A stretch of 64,000 nt of DNA from Oricola indica (GTDB taxonomy: Bacteria > Pseudomonadota > Alphaproteobacteria > Rhizobiales > Rhizobiaceae): the NCBI RefSeq assembly GCF_019966595.1, contig NZ_JAINFJ010000011.1, positions 62,001 to 126,000 of the forward strand. The letters run 5' to 3'. A model generated the notes under the pieces. It was not told the DNA's origin and ran no database searches. It worked only from the letters and a program-made list of their open reading frames with translations. Positions 40,149 through 54,304 of this stretch are shown here, one piece after another. Every line of letters starts with the position of its first letter. The stretch's first letter is position 1. A program made the position numbers and the translations under genes.

Positions 40149-40177
40149 GAAAAAACGCGGGGCAAAATGCCCCGCGT
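40149..40177 (-). terminator. rho-independent terminator after pnp
   Basis: On the minus strand ACGCGGGGCA and TGCCCCGCGT form a perfect 10-bp stem with a three-base loop, followed by TTTTTT-C-TTT. It lies 27 bases past the pnp stop and separates it from the rsmC-like gene. Confidence 0.93.
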
Positions 40178-40203
40178 CGTTGTTCATTCCGGGATGAAAG
40201 GAC

Positions 40204-46348: not shown

Positions 46349-46921
46349 TTATCGGTTTTCGCCACCCTTTGCGCCGTAAAGGAACGTCTCGGGGTCGCGG
46401 GCGGCCTCCTCCCAACCCTCGGCGAAGGCAACCATCTCGCCGGTGTCCTCGAAGGCGCGCGCGGGGATGATCAGGATATCGTCCGGCGCATCGATGAAGA
46501 CGTGACGCTCGGTGCGCGTCACCGACGCGATCGTTTCGAGCGGCACCTCGGTTGTGCGGCCGTCGCGCTTCTCGCAGAGATGATCGCCCCATTCCTCCAG
46601 TTCAACATCGCATGGCGCCGGCACCAGCCGGCGGGCACGCCGCCGCAGGCGCAGATTGAAGACCAGGACGAGGACCGCGAACTGGAAGAGGAGAAGTCCT
46701 CCTCCAATCGCCCACCATCGCAGGGAGCGATCCGCACCGACGATGCTTTCCGGAAGCAGTCCCATCGCGACACCGGCCAGCATCAGCCAAAGGATGGAAA
46801 GAAATTTTCCGGTGCCCGAATAGGCGCGTGGGATCGAGACCCATGCGTAAGCGTCTTGCGGCGTCAGGCGGTAAGCAAAGGTGCGGATCGGCTGGCCGCT
46901 GTCGGGATCATCCTGCTCCAC
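46349..46921 (-). CDS. YcxB-like membrane protein
   Basis: 190 residues. Two hydrophobic segments (about 38-56 and 68-88) are followed by a cytoplasmic YcxB-like C-terminal domain with [18 protein letters not shown] and [20 protein letters not shown], then [17 protein letters not shown]. YcxB proteins have no known function. The start is a GTG; no closer ATG fits the fold. It lies after the infB terminator and before rbfA, with a 67-base gap to rbfA, so it may start the rbfA transcript. Confidence 0.75.
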
Positions 46922-46934
46922 GCCTTTGCCCCCA

Positions 46935-46966
46935 AAAAGCGGCGGGCCGGTATCGCTACCGGCCCG
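46935..46966 (-). terminator. rho-independent terminator after infB
   Basis: On the minus strand CGGGCCGGTA and TACCGGCCCG make a perfect 10-bp stem with a four-base loop. CCGCTTTTT follows four bases later. It lies 27 bases past the infB stop. Confidence 0.8.
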
Positions 46967-46992
46967 ACTCGGATTTCACGTCGCGCCCGGCG

Positions 46993-49566
46993 TCAGAGCG
47001 TCCGGGCGATTTCCTCGACGCGGAAGCACTCGATCACGTCGCCGGCACGGATGTCGTCGTAGTTCTCGAACGCCATGCCACATTCCTGACCAACCGGCAC
47101 TTCCGCAACTTCGTCCTTGAAGCGCTTGAGCGTCTTCAGCTTGCCCTCGTGGATCACGACGTTGTCGCGCACGAGGCGCACGCCGGCTCCACGCTCGACC
47201 TTGCCTTCGGTGACCTGGCAACCGGCAACCTTGCCGACCTTGGTGATGTTGAACACCTCCAGGATCTCGGCATTGCCGAGGAAGGTCTCGCGACGTTCCG
47301 GCGAAAGCAGGCCGGACATGGCCGCCTTCACATCATCCAGCAGGTTGTAGATGATGTTGTAGTAGCGGATCTCGACGCCGTTGGCTTCTGCGGCTTCGCG
47401 GGCCTGCTTGTTGGCACGCACGTTGAACGCCATGATCGCGGCGCCGGTGGATTCGGCAAGCGAGACGTCGGTCTCGGTGATGCCGCCGGCGCCCGAATGG
47501 ACGATGCGGGCCTGGACCTCGTCGGTGCCGAGCTTATCGAGCGCACCGAGGATCGCCTCCACGGAACCCTGCACATCGCCCTTGATGACAAGCGGGAACT
47601 CGGCCAGTTCGTTGTCGCGGGCCTGGGCCATCATCTGCTCGAGCGAACCGCGCGAGCCGGCCTGGCGGGCGACCGCCTTTTCGCGCGACACGCGCTGGCG
47701 GTACTCGGAGATTTCGCGGGCACGTGCTTCCGAATCGACCACGGCGACACGGTCACCGGCCTGCGGCGTTCCGCTGAGACCGAGGATCTCGACCGGAAGC
47801 GACGGCTCGGCTTCCTTCAACTGCTCGCCGCGATCGTTGATGATCGCGCGGACGCGGCCCGACTCGTCGCCGGCGACGACGATGTCGCCGGTCCTGAGCG
47901 TACCGGCCTGAACGAGCACGGTCGCAACCGAACCGCGGCCCTTGTCCAGCTTGGCCTCGATGACCACGCCTTCGGCCGTGCGGTTCGGATTGGCCTTGAG
48001 TTCGAGGAGTTCCGACTGCAGCAGGATCGCCTCGAGCAAGCCGTCGAGATTGGTGCCCTTGAGCGCCGAGACTTCGACATCCTGGATTTCACCACCCATG
48101 GATTCCACGAAGACCTCGTGCTGGAGCAGTTCGGTGCGCACTTTCTGCGCATCGGAGTCCGGCTTGTCGATCTTGTTGATCGCCACGATCATCGGCACGC
48201 CGGCCGCCTTGATGTGATTGATCGATTCGATCGTCTGCGGCATGACGCTGTCGTCCGCCGCGACCACGAGGATAGCGATATCGGTGGCCTGGGCACCGCG
48301 CGCGCGCATCGCCGTGAAGGCGGCGTGGCCCGGCGTGTCGAGGAAGGTGATCTTCTGACCGTCCTTCTCGACCTGATAGGCGCCGATATGCTGGGTGATG
48401 CCGCCGGCTTCGCCGGACACCACATTGGCGTTGCGGATCGCATCGAGCAGCGAGGTCTTGCCGTGGTCGACGTGACCCATGATGGTCACGACCGGCGGAC
48501 GCGGCCGCATGTCGTCGGGGTTGTCCTCGACGTCGAAGATGCCTTCCTCGACATCGGCCTCGGTGACGCGCCGGACCGTATGTCCGAATTCGCCGGCGAT
48601 GAGTTCGGCCAGATCGGCGTCGATCAGATCGCCGGGCTTCATCATCTGACCTTCCTTCATCAGATACTTGACCACATCGACGGCGCGTTCCGCCATGCGC
48701 TGGGCAAGTTCCTGAATGGTGATGGTCTCGGGCAGCTGCACCTCGCGGGAAATCTTCTCGCGCGGCTCGTTCGACGCCATGGAGCGCTTGAACTTCTCCT
48801 GGCGGCGACGCATGGCCGACAGCGAGCGCGAGCGCCCTTCGGCGTCGGCGCCGACATTCGACAGGGTCAGCTTGCCGCGACGGCGTTCATCCTCGCGGCG
48901 CGGCGCCGGCTTCGGCGGCGCTTCGACGGCGCGGCTGGACCGGCGCGGACCACCGCGTCCGTCGTCCGCGTCGCCCGCTGCACGGCGTCCGCTCTTGGCG
49001 GCCGCCGCGGGCTTTTCCTCTTCGGGTTCCGGCGCACGCTTGGCGGCCTCGACCTCGGCGCGTTCGCGCGCGGCCTTCTCGGCGGCAAGACGCTCTTCTT
49101 CCTCGCGCTGGCGGCGTTCGGATTCGGCACGCTCCTGCGCACGGCGCTCATCTTCCTCGGCGCGACGCTTGGCCTCTTCGGCCGCACGCTGACGATCCTC
49201 GACCTCGCGGGCCTTGGCTTCTTCCAGCGCGCGCTTGCGTGCTTCCATCTCGTTATCGGAGAGCTGGTTCAGCACAACGCCGCTGCGATCGTCGGCCGCC
49301 GGCGCGGGACGCGGGGCGGCGGGCTTCGGCGCCTCGGGCGCCGGAGCCGGTGCGGCTGCGCGTGGCTTCACGCCGGACGCAACGGAGCCGGCCGGCTTTT
49401 CGTCGGGCCGCGTAAACTTGCGCTTGCGCGTTTCGACGACAACCGACTTCGTGCGGCCGTGGCTGAAATTCTGCCGGACGGTGCTCTTGTCACCGCCGGA
49501 GCGTTTCAGCGTCAGCGTGCGTTTGCCGTCCGCGCCTGTCTTCTTGTCGTCTGTCGTATCACTCAT
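46993..49566 (-). CDS. infB: translation initiation factor IF-2
   Basis: 857 residues. The first 270 residues are a charged, Ala/Glu/Arg-rich extension with a long coiled coil (about 105-180). Then come the IF2_N module and the G domain with [13 protein letters not shown] (G1, 364-376), [15 protein letters not shown] (G3) and [10 protein letters not shown] (G4), followed by domains II-IV ending in [20 protein letters not shown]. It brings initiator fMet-tRNA to the 30S subunit. Its ATG overlaps the ylxR stop. The last gene of the rimP-nusA-ylxR-infB operon. Confidence 0.97.
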
Positions 49567-50210
49567 TCCGTAGTCATGTCCTTTGCGGTCTTTTCGCTCG
49601 AACCGCCTGATCTGTCATTTTCTGCGCTGGAATGCCGGAAATGGTCGAGAAACACAAGGTGCCGCAGTGCGGCACGTCCCGGCTGTCCGTCAAGTATCGC
49701 AGCATGTATCACATTTCCCGCGCCCAATGCCAAATCCAATTCGCCCTCGGCAAAGGATTTGAACGCGGGTATATCAGGCCCTTCCATACGGCGGACGAAT
49801 GTCCGGGCCTGGTCAATCTTGCGCACGCCGTCCGCAGCCGCGGACGGATCGTGCAGAACGGCGATCGCCATGCCGCTTCGCACTGCCTTTTCGACCTGAG
49901 CGTGTCCCGTGACGGCACCGCCGGCCTTGCGTGTCAGACCCAGTTGGCCGAGCGCGCGCCTAGCTATCAGATGATCGACGAGGGCGCCGAGTTCAAGATC
50001 GGCGGACACTTCCTGTTTCAGACCGCGGCGAAACAGTTTCTTCGCAACGGCCTTGTCGACGAGGTCCCGCCTGGCCGTGACCCAACAGCCACGACCCGGC
50101 AGATTGCGCTTCAGGTCAGGGACGACCGTCCCGTCGGGACCCGCCACGAAGCGGATCATGTCGTCCACGGACCCGGCCTTCCCGGTCACGATGCAGGTGC
50201 GGTCGTTCAT
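49563..50210 (-). CDS. ylxR: YlxR-family RNA-binding protein with L7Ae-like C-terminal domain
   Basis: 215 residues. Residues 1-80 are a YlxR (DUF448) domain: [40 protein letters not shown] and the basic KKLFRRGLK. Residues about 90-185 resemble the L7Ae/L30e fold ([40 protein letters not shown]). YlxR binds RNA and associates with RNase P and ribosomes in other bacteria; the role in alphaproteobacteria is inferred. AAGGA lies before the chosen ATG. It sits between nusA and infB as expected. Confidence 0.88.
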
Positions 50211-50276
50211 GTCGTCCTTCTTGCCTGCGATCCCGCCCAAGTGCCGTTATCTCCGTCCGCGCGCGCATCGTTCGTC

Positions 50277-51920
50277 TCAGGCGTCGAAGATCACGCCGGT
50301 CGAGACCGGTGCTTCTTCCACGGCTTCCTCTTCGCCTTCGCCCTCGACTTCCTCCTCGGGGGCGCGCAGGTCCTCCTCGGTGATCCAGCCGACGGCGAGA
50401 CGCGCGGCGACGACCATTTCCTCGGCATCAACGCGGCTGACGCCGAACGGCGTCAGGACGCCGTCGTGGAACGTCGTCTCGCCATCCTTGCGCTCGCGCC
50501 AGCCGACGAGGTCGTCGGAGGCGCAACCGGCGAAGTCTTCCATCGACTTGATGCCTTCCTCGCCGAGCGCGACCATCATCGCGGTGGTGATGCCGGGAAC
50601 TTCGCGAATTTCGTCGGCGACGCCCAGACTCTTGCGCTTCTCGTCGTTTTCCGCCTCGATGCGGTCGAGGTGCTCGCGCGCACGGGTCTGGATCTCGGCG
50701 GCGGTTTCCTCGTCGAAGCCCTCGATGGAGGAGACTTCCTCGGCATCGACATAGGCGACTTCCTCGATCGAGGTGAAGCCTTCCGAAGCCAGCACCTGGC
50801 CGACCATCTCGTCGACATCGAGCGATTCCATGAACAGGTTCGAGCGCTCGACGAATTCCTTCTGACGGCGCGCCGATTCCTCTTCCTCGGTCAGGATGTC
50901 GATATCCCAACCGGTCAATTGCGAGGCAAGACGGACATTCTGGCCGCGGCGGCCGATGGCCAGCGACAGCTGCTCGTCCGGCACGACGACCTCGATGCGC
51001 TCGGCATCCTCGTCGAGGACGACCTTGGCGACTTCGGCCGGCTGCAGCGCGTTGACGATGAAGGACGCCGCATCGGGCTGCCAGGGAATGATGTCGATCT
51101 TCTCGCCCTGCAACTCGGCGACGACCGCCTGAACCCTGGAGCCGCGCATGCCGACGCAGGCGCCGACCGGGTCGATGGCCGAATCGCGCGAGACGACGGC
51201 GATCTTGGCGCGCGAACCGGGGTCGCGGGCGACAGACTTGATCTCGATGATGCCGTCGTAGATTTCCGGCACTTCCATCTGGAACAGCTTCGCCATGAAC
51301 TGCGGATGGGTGCGCGACAGGAAGATCTGCGGGCCGCGCTGCTCGCGGCGCACGTCATAGACATAGGCGCGCACGCGGTCGCCATAGCGGTAGGTCTCGC
51401 GCGGGATCAGTTCGTCCCGGCGGATGATCGCCTCGGCGCGGCCGAGATCGACGATCACGTTGCCGTATTCGACGCGCTTGACCGATCCGTTGACGATCTC
51501 GCCAACACGGTCCTTGAACTCGTCATACTGGTTGTCGCGCTCGGCCTCGCGGACCTTCTGCACGATGACCTGCTTCGCGGACTGTGCGGCGATACGGCCG
51601 AAATCGAGCGGCGGCAGCTGTTCGGCGATGAAATCACCGGGCTGGGCGTCCGGGTTGCGGTCGCGGGCCTGCTCGATGGAAATCTGCGTCGCGGAGTCCT
51701 CGACGGTCTCGGAGACCTCCAGAAGCCGCTGCAGCTTGATCTCGCCGGTCTTGGTGTTGATATCGGCGCGGATATTGGTTTCCTGCCCGTAGCGGGACTT
51801 CGCGGCCTTCTGAATGGCATCGGCCATGGCGCCGATCACGATGTCCTTGTCGATGAGCTTCTCGCGCGCCACGGCATCGGCGATCTGAAGAAGTTCCAAC
51901 CTGTTTGCACTGACAGCCAT
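50277..51920 (-). CDS. nusA: transcription termination/antitermination protein NusA
   Basis: 547 residues: an N-terminal RNA-polymerase-binding domain, an S1 domain ([20 protein letters not shown]), two KH domains ([40 protein letters not shown]) and two C-terminal acidic repeats with helix-hairpin-helix character. The tail is acidic ([15 protein letters not shown]). It modulates pausing, termination and rrn antitermination. AGGAGA lies six bases before [11 protein letters not shown]. It follows rimP after 19 bases. Confidence 0.96.
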
Positions 51921-51939
51921 TGCGGTCTCCTGTGGGCCT

Positions 51940-52569
51940 TCAGTTGTCCGTATCGTCTTCGGATACGGAGTCCTCGTCTTCCAGTTCCAGTCCACGCGCC
52001 TGGCGGGCAGCCTTGTCGGCCTTCAGCGCGGCGCGGATCAATTCATCGGTCAGGATCAGCCGTGCATCGGCGATCGTGTCGAGCGGGATTTCCGCGACCA
52101 TCGAATCGCCGAAGCTCGCCTTGTCGGATTCCACCGTGACGCTGTCCTGCGAAAGCCCGATGATCGTGCCGCGAAAGCGCTTGCGCCCCGCGACAATCAC
52201 CGACGTGTCGATCTTCGCCATATGGCCGCTCCACCGCGCGAAATCGGACATGCGCACAAGCGGCCGGTCGATGCCGGGCGATGACACTTCGAGGTGGTAG
52301 GCCCGGTCGATCGGATCCTCGACGTCGAGCAGAGGCGAGATCATGCGCGATACGTTCTCGCAATCCTCGACGGTCATTGTGCCGTCGGCACGCTCGGCCA
52401 TGATCTGGAGCGTCAGTCCGTTCATTCCGGACAGGCGGACGCGGACCAGCCGGTAACCGGCCGAATTGAGCACGGGCTCGACGATCGACGCGACGCGCGC
52501 ATCCACGCCCGTCTCGCGGACGATGCGCTGTTCGTCATTTTCGATCGGCGCCAGATATGCGTCGCTCAA
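51940..52569 (-). CDS. rimP: ribosome maturation factor RimP
   Basis: About 209 residues. [20 protein letters not shown], the strand [20 protein letters not shown] and [20 protein letters not shown] with IDRPL identify RimP; the C-terminal SH3-like part and an acidic tail follow. It is needed for 30S maturation. I place the start at a TTG (reading [10 protein letters not shown]) preceded by GAGGAA nine bases upstream; no ATG is available before the conserved part. It is the first gene of the operon, with a promoter and a leader terminator hairpin upstream. Confidence 0.93.
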
Positions 52570-52590
52570 TTTGGTGCGTTCCTCACCGCT

Positions 52591-52622
52591 AAAACAAAAA
52601 GAGCGGGTCCTTGCGGGCCCAC
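52591..52622 (-). terminator. terminator-like hairpin in the rimP leader (attenuator candidate)
   Basis: On the minus strand GTGGGCCC-GCAA-GGACCCGC forms an 8-bp stem with one mismatch and one G-U pair, followed by TCTTTTTGTTTT. It lies between the predicted rimP promoter and the rimP start, about 20 bases before that TTG. No gene upstream on this strand ends nearby, so it looks like premature termination control. Confidence 0.6.
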
Positions 52623-52652
52623 CCTTGTTCAAAAGACCAAGAATTTGACTTC

Positions 52653-52681
52653 CATATACGCCCCGGGCGGACAAAGCGCAA
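52653..52681 (-). promoter_or_regulatory. predicted promoter of the rimP-nusA-ylxR-infB operon
   Basis: On the minus strand TTGCGC (52681-52676) and TATATG (52658-52653) are 17 bases apart. Transcription would start near 52646 and run into the hairpin at 52622. Confidence 0.5.
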
Positions 52682-52784
52682 GGGGCGCGATCTTTCGTGA
52701 GCACGGCAAGCCGGCGACGGGCCGAAAGGGTCCATTAACCATAATCGGCGAAAACAAACGGGCGAAACAGACCGTGCGAGTCCC

Positions 52785-53603
52785 ATGTTCCAGCGTCTTC
52801 TGCCGCCGCTGCTCGGCGCCCTCCTCATCGCCGGTTGCGCCAGCACCCAGGCCCCGGACAAATTCCGCAAATCTTCCGAAGCTGGCGGCACCGAAGTGGC
52901 CTCCGCCTTCGTCCGGCCCGGACGGGCGCCTTTCGATGAAGTGCTACCGCGCAAGGGGCGGCTCGCCGGGCGCACCATTTCCGTTTCGAATGTCTACGAC
53001 ATCCGTCTGAAGCCGCGTGAAGTGATCCTGACTTTCGACGACGGGCCGGTGCCGGGGCGCACTGATTCCATTCTCAAGACGCTCGACCAGTTTGGCGTGA
53101 AGGCGACCTTCCTGATGGTTGGCCAGATGGCGAAGAACCATCCCGGGACCGTTCGCAAGGTGGCAGGCCGGGGGCATTCGATCGGCAGCCATACATGGGG
53201 CCATCCGAACCTTGCGCATATGAGCTTCGATCGCGCGGTGGCCGAGATCAAGCGCGGCGAGGATGCGATCCGGGCGGCCGGTGGTGGGCCGGTCAGGTTC
53301 TTCCGGTTCCCCTACCTCGCCGATACCAGCCGGCTTCGCTCCTACATGGCGTCGCGCGGCGTCGTGGTTCTCGATGTGGACATCGATTCCAAAGATTATT
53401 TCAAATCAGGGCCGCAACAGGTTTCGGCGCGCACCATGGCGTCGCTTCGGCGCAAGGGCGGCGGCATCATCCTGTTCCATGACCTGCAAGCGCGCACGGC
53501 TGCGATGCTGCCGGGCTTCCTCGCGGAGCTGAAGCGGAACGGATACTCGGTCGTCCATATCGTGCCGCGACGCGGACCCTTGCAGTTGGCCTCGGCCAAG
53601 TGA
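52785..53603 (+). CDS. polysaccharide deacetylase (NodB domain) lipoprotein
   Basis: 272 residues. A lipoprotein signal ends in LIAGC at residue 18, so it should be lipid-anchored. The NodB domain has the metal/catalytic motifs TFDDGPVPG, SIGSHTWGHPNL, FFRFPYL and a late HDLQARTA. It removes acetyl groups from an N-acetylglucosamine polymer such as peptidoglycan or an exopolysaccharide. The gene is the only plus-strand one between 40 and 64 kb; it ends 3 bases before the trmB stop on the other strand. Confidence 0.88.
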   Translation: MFQRLLPPLLGALLIAGCASTQAPDKFRKSSEAGGTEVASAFVRPGRAPFDEVLPRKGRLAGRTISVSNVYDIRLKPREVILTFDDGPVPGRTDSILKTLDQFGVKATFLMVGQMAKNHPGTVRKVAGRGHSIGSHTWGHPNLAHMSFDRAVAEIKRGEDAIRAAGGGPVRFFRFPYLADTSRLRSYMASRGVVVLDVDIDSKDYFKSGPQQVSARTMASLRRKGGGIILFHDLQARTAAMLPGFLAELKRNGYSVVHIVPRRGPLQLASAK

Positions 53604-53606
53604 CCG

Positions 53607-54304
53607 CTATTTGCGCCGAAATGTGAGATAGGCCGGCGTCCGCCCCTCGCGAAGCGCCTTGGCCTCGTAGCGCGTGCCGGGCCAGCCTTCATAGGGCGTG
53701 CGCCAGTCGGATGCGTTGCGGGCCGGCCAGTCGAAGTCCGGATGGGCGTATATGTGCCGGAGCGTCCAGTTGACATAGGTGTCGATGTCGGAGGCGAAGC
53801 GGAAGCGCGCGCCGGGCTTCAGGACGCGCGCGAAGCGATCGAGATTGACCTCGTTGACGAAGCGCCGCTTCCAGTGCCGCATCTTCGGCCACGGATCGGG
53901 ATAGAGCAGGTCGATCCCGTCCAGGCACGCATCGGGCAGCCAGTCGAGCAGCTGCGTCGCGTCATCGTCGTAAAGGCGGACATTGGTCACGCCCGCATCG
54001 CCCGCAGACGCGACGAATTTCGCCATGGAATTCACGAAGGGCTCGACACCGATGAAGCCCGTTTCCGGGCTTTCGAGCGCCCGATGCAGCAGATGCTCTC
54101 CGCCGCCAAAACCGATTTCGAGGAGGACAAGCTGCGGCGCGTGGTCGAACAGGTCGGCCAGCCCCGCAGGGGCGGGTTCCGTCAGGTCGATCTTCCACGC
54201 CGGCAGAAGGCGGCCGAGTTGTTCCGCCTGGCGCGGCTTCAGCGTTTTGCCGCGGCGGCGACCGAAAAACGCCTCGGTTGCCCGGGAGCGTCGCTTCTCT
54301 TCGG

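Follow-up and report, generated by a model that had tools for sequence, protein, structure and literature searches.

The rimP-nusA-ylxR-infB operon in the 64-kb stretch of Oricola indica DNA analyzed here (64,000 nucleotides, the window) is probably controlled by a leader attenuator, in which an upstream hairpin (P1) and a terminator hairpin (P2) compete and NusA is the likeliest input. Attenuation is well supported by comparison of related sequences, and we infer that transcription is terminated at P2 in the cell. The role of P1 as an antiterminator, and with it the effect of P1 on termination, is a prediction, and NusA is put forward as the effector by analogy with other bacteria. The initial annotation had proposed an attenuator between the promoter and rimP, a proposal that stands, but it missed both the competing P1 and the known leader class. 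The features are listed in Table 1.

Table 1. Features of the rimP leader and its surroundings, in window coordinates
Feature	Position	Strand	Basis
-35 box TTGCGC	52676-52681	-	Sequence; aligned consensus CTTG at 52682-52679
-10 box TATATG	52653-52658	-	Sequence; TAT conserved in alignment
P1 upstream hairpin, putative antiterminator: UCUUGGUC-UUUU-GAACAAGG	52623-52642	-	Covariation, strand swap, shuffles, truncated-RNA folding
P2 terminator hairpin: AAGGGUGGG-C-CC-GCAA-GG-A-CCCGCUCUU (read 52626-52599)	52599-52626	-	Sequence, folding, conservation
P2 core GUGGG-C-CC-GCAA-GG-A-CCCGC	52622-52603	-	
U.G wobble in the terminator stem	52621 paired with 52604	-	
U tract UUUGUUUU	52591-52598	-	Sequence
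Ribosome-binding site GAGGAA, probable	52579-52584	-	By inspection of the sequence
rimP, TTG start	51940-52569	-	Pfam RimP_N and DUF150_C
nusA reading frame	50277-51995	-	Pfam NusA_N, S1 and KH_5; ATG start near 51920 probable, by inspection
ylxR (DUF448)	49563-50240	-	Pfam PF04296
infB (IF-2)	46993-49566	-	Pfam IF-2, GTP_EFTU and IF2_N
Polysaccharide deacetylase gene, divergent, between trmB and rimP	52785-53603	+	Pfam PF01522

The gene order rimP, nusA, ylxR, infB was confirmed by Pfam, in agreement with the earlier statement that the operon encodes NusA and IF-2. The promoter-like pair proposed at 52653-52681 also held up. Its boxes are separated by 17 nt (TTGCGC to TATATG, minus strand, 52681-52653), and CTTG and TAT were each conserved in at least 90% of 70 aligned leaders. 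These came from the family of the window and from close relatives with names, and had been picked for the hairpin and not for the promoter. Promoter boxes and hairpin aligned together in this all-leader alignment, and the leader start CAAATTCTTGG was kept ahead of the hairpin. From the spacing, the transcription start would lie at about 52646. A simple consensus scan listed neither the rimP promoter nor the rimP terminator. The TTG of rimP (52569) follows the end of the U tract by 21 nt, matching the distance of about 20 bases first noted, and the nearest relatives (L002, L003 and L006) align with rimP from residue 1. Directly past infB, a strong hairpin with a T-rich tail (46940-46971, minus strand) precedes a 190-amino-acid frame without a Pfam match (46349-46921) and then rbfA; in E. 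coli, terminator t3 is likewise described upstream of rbfA (PMC6511841).

The 33-nt P2 had a folding energy of -16.2 kcal/mol, and 6 of 200 shuffles were equally good. Counting both strands, the window contains 129 candidates for a hairpin followed by a T tail. P2 ranked 36th of these by energy, and only P2 and two others have 7 or more T in 8. The lowest energy among these three belongs to an intrinsic-terminator-like hairpin at 40154-40178 (minus strand) with the tail TTTTCTTT. Longer stretches around P2 folded no better than shuffles (z of -0.89 for 101 nt, -0.93 for 56 nt and -1.34 for 80 nt). On the sequence evidence, the reality of P2 is settled by conservation.

The best RimP matches among the named genomes came from Oricola and its relatives in the Hyphomicrobiales. 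Of the 80 named loci, 79 were usable, one being too short, and 59 of them carry GTGGG..CCCGC no more than 350 nt ahead of rimP; at least two of the 59, L070 and L074, seem to be chance hits. The stricter pattern GTGGG-N(3-26)-CCCGCTCTTT was present in 144 of 151 family genomes, once in the window's genome and twice in 16 family genomes; the count is of matches anywhere in a genome, and the only match of G005 is not at rimP. At the level of the order, genomes were sampled through their RimP, which was present in 136 of 140, and 130 leaders were read. A P2-like hairpin preceded rimP in 119 of the 130 leaders and in 46 of 49 families. The leaders cover 130 of the 135 RimP genomes besides the window's, all but G162, G169, G206, G242 and G276. 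With such recurrence the hairpin is not a chance feature.

In the order the hairpin typically reads GAGUGGG..CCCGCUCUUUUUU, and its U.G wobble hardly ever changes. Since the order-level pattern forces G-U-G-G and C-C-[G/A]-C, together with a T tail and flanking pairs, the constancy of the core letters is partly by construction. When core position 2 was left free, the pair was U.G in 113 of 120 scored leaders (130 examined), C-G in 4, U-A in 2 and A-U in 1. The motif as searched missed 11 of the 130 leaders; among these, inspection by eye found C-G replacing U.G in L212, L282 and L291 and a hairpin without a U tract in L173, L177 and L240. Outside the order, GTGG[GA]..[CT]CC[GA]C with a T tail was present in 49 of 68 class-level leaders (68 of 112 RimP genomes outside the order being covered), with U.G in 25 and U-A in 24 of the 49, both of which the pattern allows.

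The upstream genes bear on whether the hairpin regulates rimP or merely stops stray transcription from entering it. The latter would suit the 45 of 75 loci with enough upstream DNA in which trmB lies upstream in the same direction (metK is there too in 43, and the divergent deacetylase gene intervenes in 2 of these). In the window, trmB is on the same strand as rimP and ends at 53607, about 1 kb upstream, and the immediate neighbor is the divergent deacetylase gene, which agrees with the earlier remark that no upstream gene on this strand needs a terminator here. Across the 75 loci the P2-like hairpin was kept whichever gene is upstream, including where the divergent gene intervenes. Neither trmB nor metK was found in 30 loci, and 21 of these keep the hairpin, 4 of them without a U tract. 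A general roadblock, moreover, needs no such cross-family sequence likeness. Because the hairpin lies downstream of the conserved promoter boxes and is kept whatever the upstream gene, it is best read as a leader attenuator and not as an upstream gene's terminator, and an unregulated block of stray transcription is improbable. The placement of an attenuator at the head of the operon is therefore strongly supported by comparison, through conservation, promoter alignment and gene context. A divergent deacetylase gene at the trmB-rimP position is confined to L003 and L006 among the 80 named loci.

The U tract is less constant than the hairpin. At least 5 T in the 11 nt past the hairpin were kept in 111 of 119 order-level matches, and 8 had fewer than 5. 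GUGG..CCGC persists although a proper U tract is missing in L025, L026, L028, L029 and L030 (Hansschlegelia, Chenggangzhangella and Methylopila), and the same holds for families f34 (3 of 3 leaders), f52 (2 of 2) and f16 (3 of 4, L221 keeping TTT) and for single leaders of f2, f14 and f45. With relaxed matching, the forms of f34, f52 and the three genera read GUGGG..CCGC followed by CCAAA or alike. Where the U tract is lost or very short, in these five named loci, f34, f52 and most of f16, the sequence is CCCGCCCCAAA and similar. The natural guess is that a hairpin without a U tract is a protein-binding or pause site. In the same vein, the hairpin could primarily serve an operon product (NusA or RimP) as a place to bind or to pause the polymerase, with termination secondary where a U tract is present; that it outlasts the U tract in several lineages and carries a U.G wobble in 113 of 120 leaders, unneeded by a plain terminator, would be explained in this way. 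The prevalence of the U tract, however, indicates that termination is the prevailing design, and L240 and L041, in which by eye a T run lies slightly further on behind a possible alternative hairpin, may still terminate. We consider a primary role in binding or pausing doubtful, though the most plausible of the alternatives. The relatives without a U tract offer a natural means to part hairpin recognition from termination.

P1 can be folded immediately 5' of GUGGG in many order-level leaders, with AAGA, GAGA, UAGA, GUGA, etc., as its 3' strand. In an f34 leader the main outer P1 stem stops two bases short of the core. Its 3' end in the window (52626-52623) is also the base of the P2 5' arm. 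For the covariation analysis, 70 leaders including the window's were reduced to 61 by removal of identical shorter stretches, and the 61 were aligned with MAFFT without structure. To be selected, a leader had to have GTGGG..CCCGC, purine-rich letters ahead of it and a T tail; neither these filters nor those of the order-level set look at the P1 5' strand. The 84 eligible loci yielded 69 leaders; 10 loci were duplicates, L007, L090 and L091 failed the letter filter, and L125 and L126 had no such leader. For P1 together with the P2 core in the 61 leaders, the covariation score was 0.117 versus 0.083 in shuffles, and there were 36 doubly changed cells versus 16.9, neither value being reached in 500 shuffles (0/500); the number of further pair types was not above shuffles (249/500). 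For the P2 base, covariation did not exceed that of shuffles, as there is hardly any variation on its tail side. The covariation search suggested with the initial annotation supported P1 and not the P2 base. RNAalifold applied to the same alignment predicted P2 and not P1.

The clearest single case is column pair 11-27 of P1, which was U-A in 48, C-G in 10 and U-G in 3 of 61 leaders. The P2 partner of column 27 was U in all 61, indicating that the change in column 27 tracks P1 and not P2. P1 usually has an internal mismatch, sited in column pair 12-26 or 13-25 (unpaired in 41/61 and 26/61 leaders, respectively). When the 3' strands of P1 were swapped between 46 families, the own pairing was better (P = 1, 13 and 2 of 5000, then 1 and 21 of 5000), whereas five control regions gave 3198, 2854, 2015, 3699 and 2908 of 5000. 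At the four lengths used, the mean probability per family that the shared segment pairs upstream was 0.67-0.78, versus 0.55-0.58 in dinucleotide shuffles (Wilcoxon p from 0.0021 to 3.7e-7). Family by family the signal is modest: depending on length, between 6 and 13 of the 46 families have a median p <= 0.05, and for the window's own family with 52 nt, promoter DNA included, P1 was below shuffles (0.37 vs 0.43). The strand-swap signal was absent in 49 leaders of other Alphaproteobacteria (P = 2322/5000). From these sequence comparisons, P1 is proposed within the order only and not class-wide.

Complementary half-sites of a DNA operator also covary, and P1 spans roughly positions +5 to +24 relative to the proposed start. 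P1 may thus be a palindromic operator near the start site and not an RNA structure, which would leave a plain attenuator without an antiterminator; the 17 of 366 P1 cells that are neither Watson-Crick nor G-U would fit this. Against it, P1 contains G-U pairs (21/366), loop lengths of 3 to 7 nt are seen among the aligned family leaders, and longer forms with extra inner helices occur in leaders of other families. Fixed-spacing operators seldom accept varying loop length or extra inner helices. The 3' strand of P1 also abuts the terminator core. We therefore regard a DNA operator as unlikely, and P1 is treated below as an RNA hairpin.

By computation, P1 and P2 are two mutually exclusive hairpins sharing 52626-52623, in the manner of an antiterminator and a terminator. 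When the growing window RNA was folded, P1 stood at 1.00 until CCCGC emerged. Once UCUUU was out, P1 fell to 0.31 with the P2 base at 0.63, and with 45 nt more the two were about even again (0.52 and 0.46). With one leader per family (n = 46), mean P1 was 0.77 and then 0.27. The explicit window structures differed by 0.9 kcal/mol (-15.8 for P1 plus core and -16.7 for full P2), and free folding favored P2 in the window by 2.7 kcal/mol. P2 was favored over P1 plus core in all 61 family-level leaders, with a median advantage of 1.2 kcal/mol by free folding (interquartile 1.2-1.8). In 46 order families the median gap by free folding was 2.4 kcal/mol (0.9-3.7), with 17 of 46 within 2. The near-balance of P1 and P2 is a family-level trait, less so order-wide. 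In 40 of 46 families P1 competed better than would be expected from upstream DNA shuffled base by base (Wilcoxon p = 4e-8).

In the proposed mechanism, a polymerase starting near 52646 would make a leader of about 50-55 nt. P1 would fold first and hold the AAGG/GAGA segment. As the GUGGG..CCCGC core and then UCUU emerge, P2 would take this segment from P1, and completion of the P2 stem up to the U tract would release the polymerase. Persistence of P1 would leave a shortened P2 stem and poorer termination. Because P1 and P2 overlap by no more than about 4 pairs, termination is probably tuned and not abolished by P1; the P2 core alone might still terminate despite P1.

The nature of the signal was considered from several sides. 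The conserved hairpin sequence suggests that a protein reads the hairpin, and NusA is the likeliest such protein; encoded by the operon, it would favor P2 and thereby lower its own synthesis. Cold shock has been proposed as the input for the E. coli operon, with Csp proteins melting the hairpin and raising read-through (Bae et al. 2000, cited in PMC6511841). PMC6511841 states that its own northern data do not fit antitermination, and by folding both P1 and P2 of the window become more stable on cooling, making cold shock a rather remote candidate. The terminated leader, a predicted separate RNA some 50-55 nt long that ends in a terminator, could in principle act in trans as a small RNA. The P1 and P2 loops, however, are among the least conserved leader parts, and no conserved single-stranded seed was seen beyond the first bases of the leader; this is the least probable of the explanations considered. 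A leader-peptide attenuator was set aside, as the length of the frame that begins with UUG is not constant: in the alignment rows inspected by eye, it stops early in some and continues in others.

A fuller model can be offered tentatively. The Hyphomicrobiales rimP leader may be a two-state switch that is near-balanced in the window's family, in which NusA or RimP recognizes the GUGGG hairpin and P1 sets the threshold for read-through, and some lineages may keep a hairpin without a U tract solely for protein binding or pausing. The operon products NusA, IF-2 and RimP are central transcription and translation factors, and this compact leader, about 55 nt long and equipped with a competing hairpin that covaries, provides a precise, testable model of how the NusA level might be set in these Alphaproteobacteria.

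Covariance models did not recognize this leader. For Rfam RF01770 (rimP), 0 of 31 genomes (the window's and relatives) were over the cutoff, with 1 of 14 named genomes as control, and the only match in the window's genome was subthreshold and on another contig. RF01770 shares its name and position with the window leader, which its covariance model misses. No Rfam family reached its gathering score within the 64-kb window; in 52400-53000 there were only subthreshold candidates (L20_leader, 24.3 versus 58.7 bits, and M23), which were rejected. A full-text literature search found no paper on the rimP leader in Hyphomicrobiales. In their main texts, a Sinorhizobium meliloti sRNA survey (PMC2873474) does not contain nusA, infB, SMc0291 or trmB, and an agrobacterial start-site paper (PMC10469942) does not contain nusA or rimP. 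The covarying competitor hairpin, the near-fixed U.G pair and the forms without a U tract appear to be additions, none having been found in the literature search.

Several known leaders resemble the one described here. The E. coli metY-rimP-nusA-infB leader shares a UGGGC..GCCC hairpin and a T tract before rimP, and differs in having a tRNA gene and a second terminator upstream and in being without the GAGUGGG..CCCGCUC form. NusA feedback is reported there (PMC6511841, PMC7815308), and a fusion of the rimP 5' UTR plus open reading frame is reported to have gone down in a Rho mutant (PMC7815308). In the rimP operon of Streptococcus agalactiae, short and long transcripts are described from one start, the short one ending 31 nt past it at a predicted intrinsic terminator (PMC4448216); that evidence is experimental, and the likeness drawn here lies in the description of a short leader transcript. 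NusA of Bacillus subtilis is described as autoregulated by NusA-stimulated termination in the leader of the nusA operon (2025 review PMC12288461; Mondal et al. 2016), whereas for the O. indica leader the NusA input is proposed by analogy.

The closest counterpart is the rimP-leader of Naville and Gautheret 2010 (PMC2965389), who describe it as more ubiquitous than any other attenuator, report that its GGGc..gCCC terminator is conserved and propose NusA as the best candidate effector. In the main text of that paper, Alphaproteobacteria and Rhizobi are absent and alpha-proteobacteria occurs only in a reference title; the order may be among the supplement entries. The rimP-leader lies in the 5' UTR of rimP-nusA-infB, 4-130 nt before the gene, compared with 21 nt in the window, where transcription is deduced from the promoter boxes. 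Its G-rich 5' arm, C-rich 3' arm (GGGc..gCCC) and U stretch are paralleled by GGG..CCC in the window, with a C.A mismatch in place of the lower-case c/g pair. By its position and terminator, the sequence of the window element places it in the rimP-leader class. The general form has no visible antiterminator, one being reported in that paper only in several Gammaproteobacteria, and the presence of P1 in the window is a difference at the level of a variant and not of the class.
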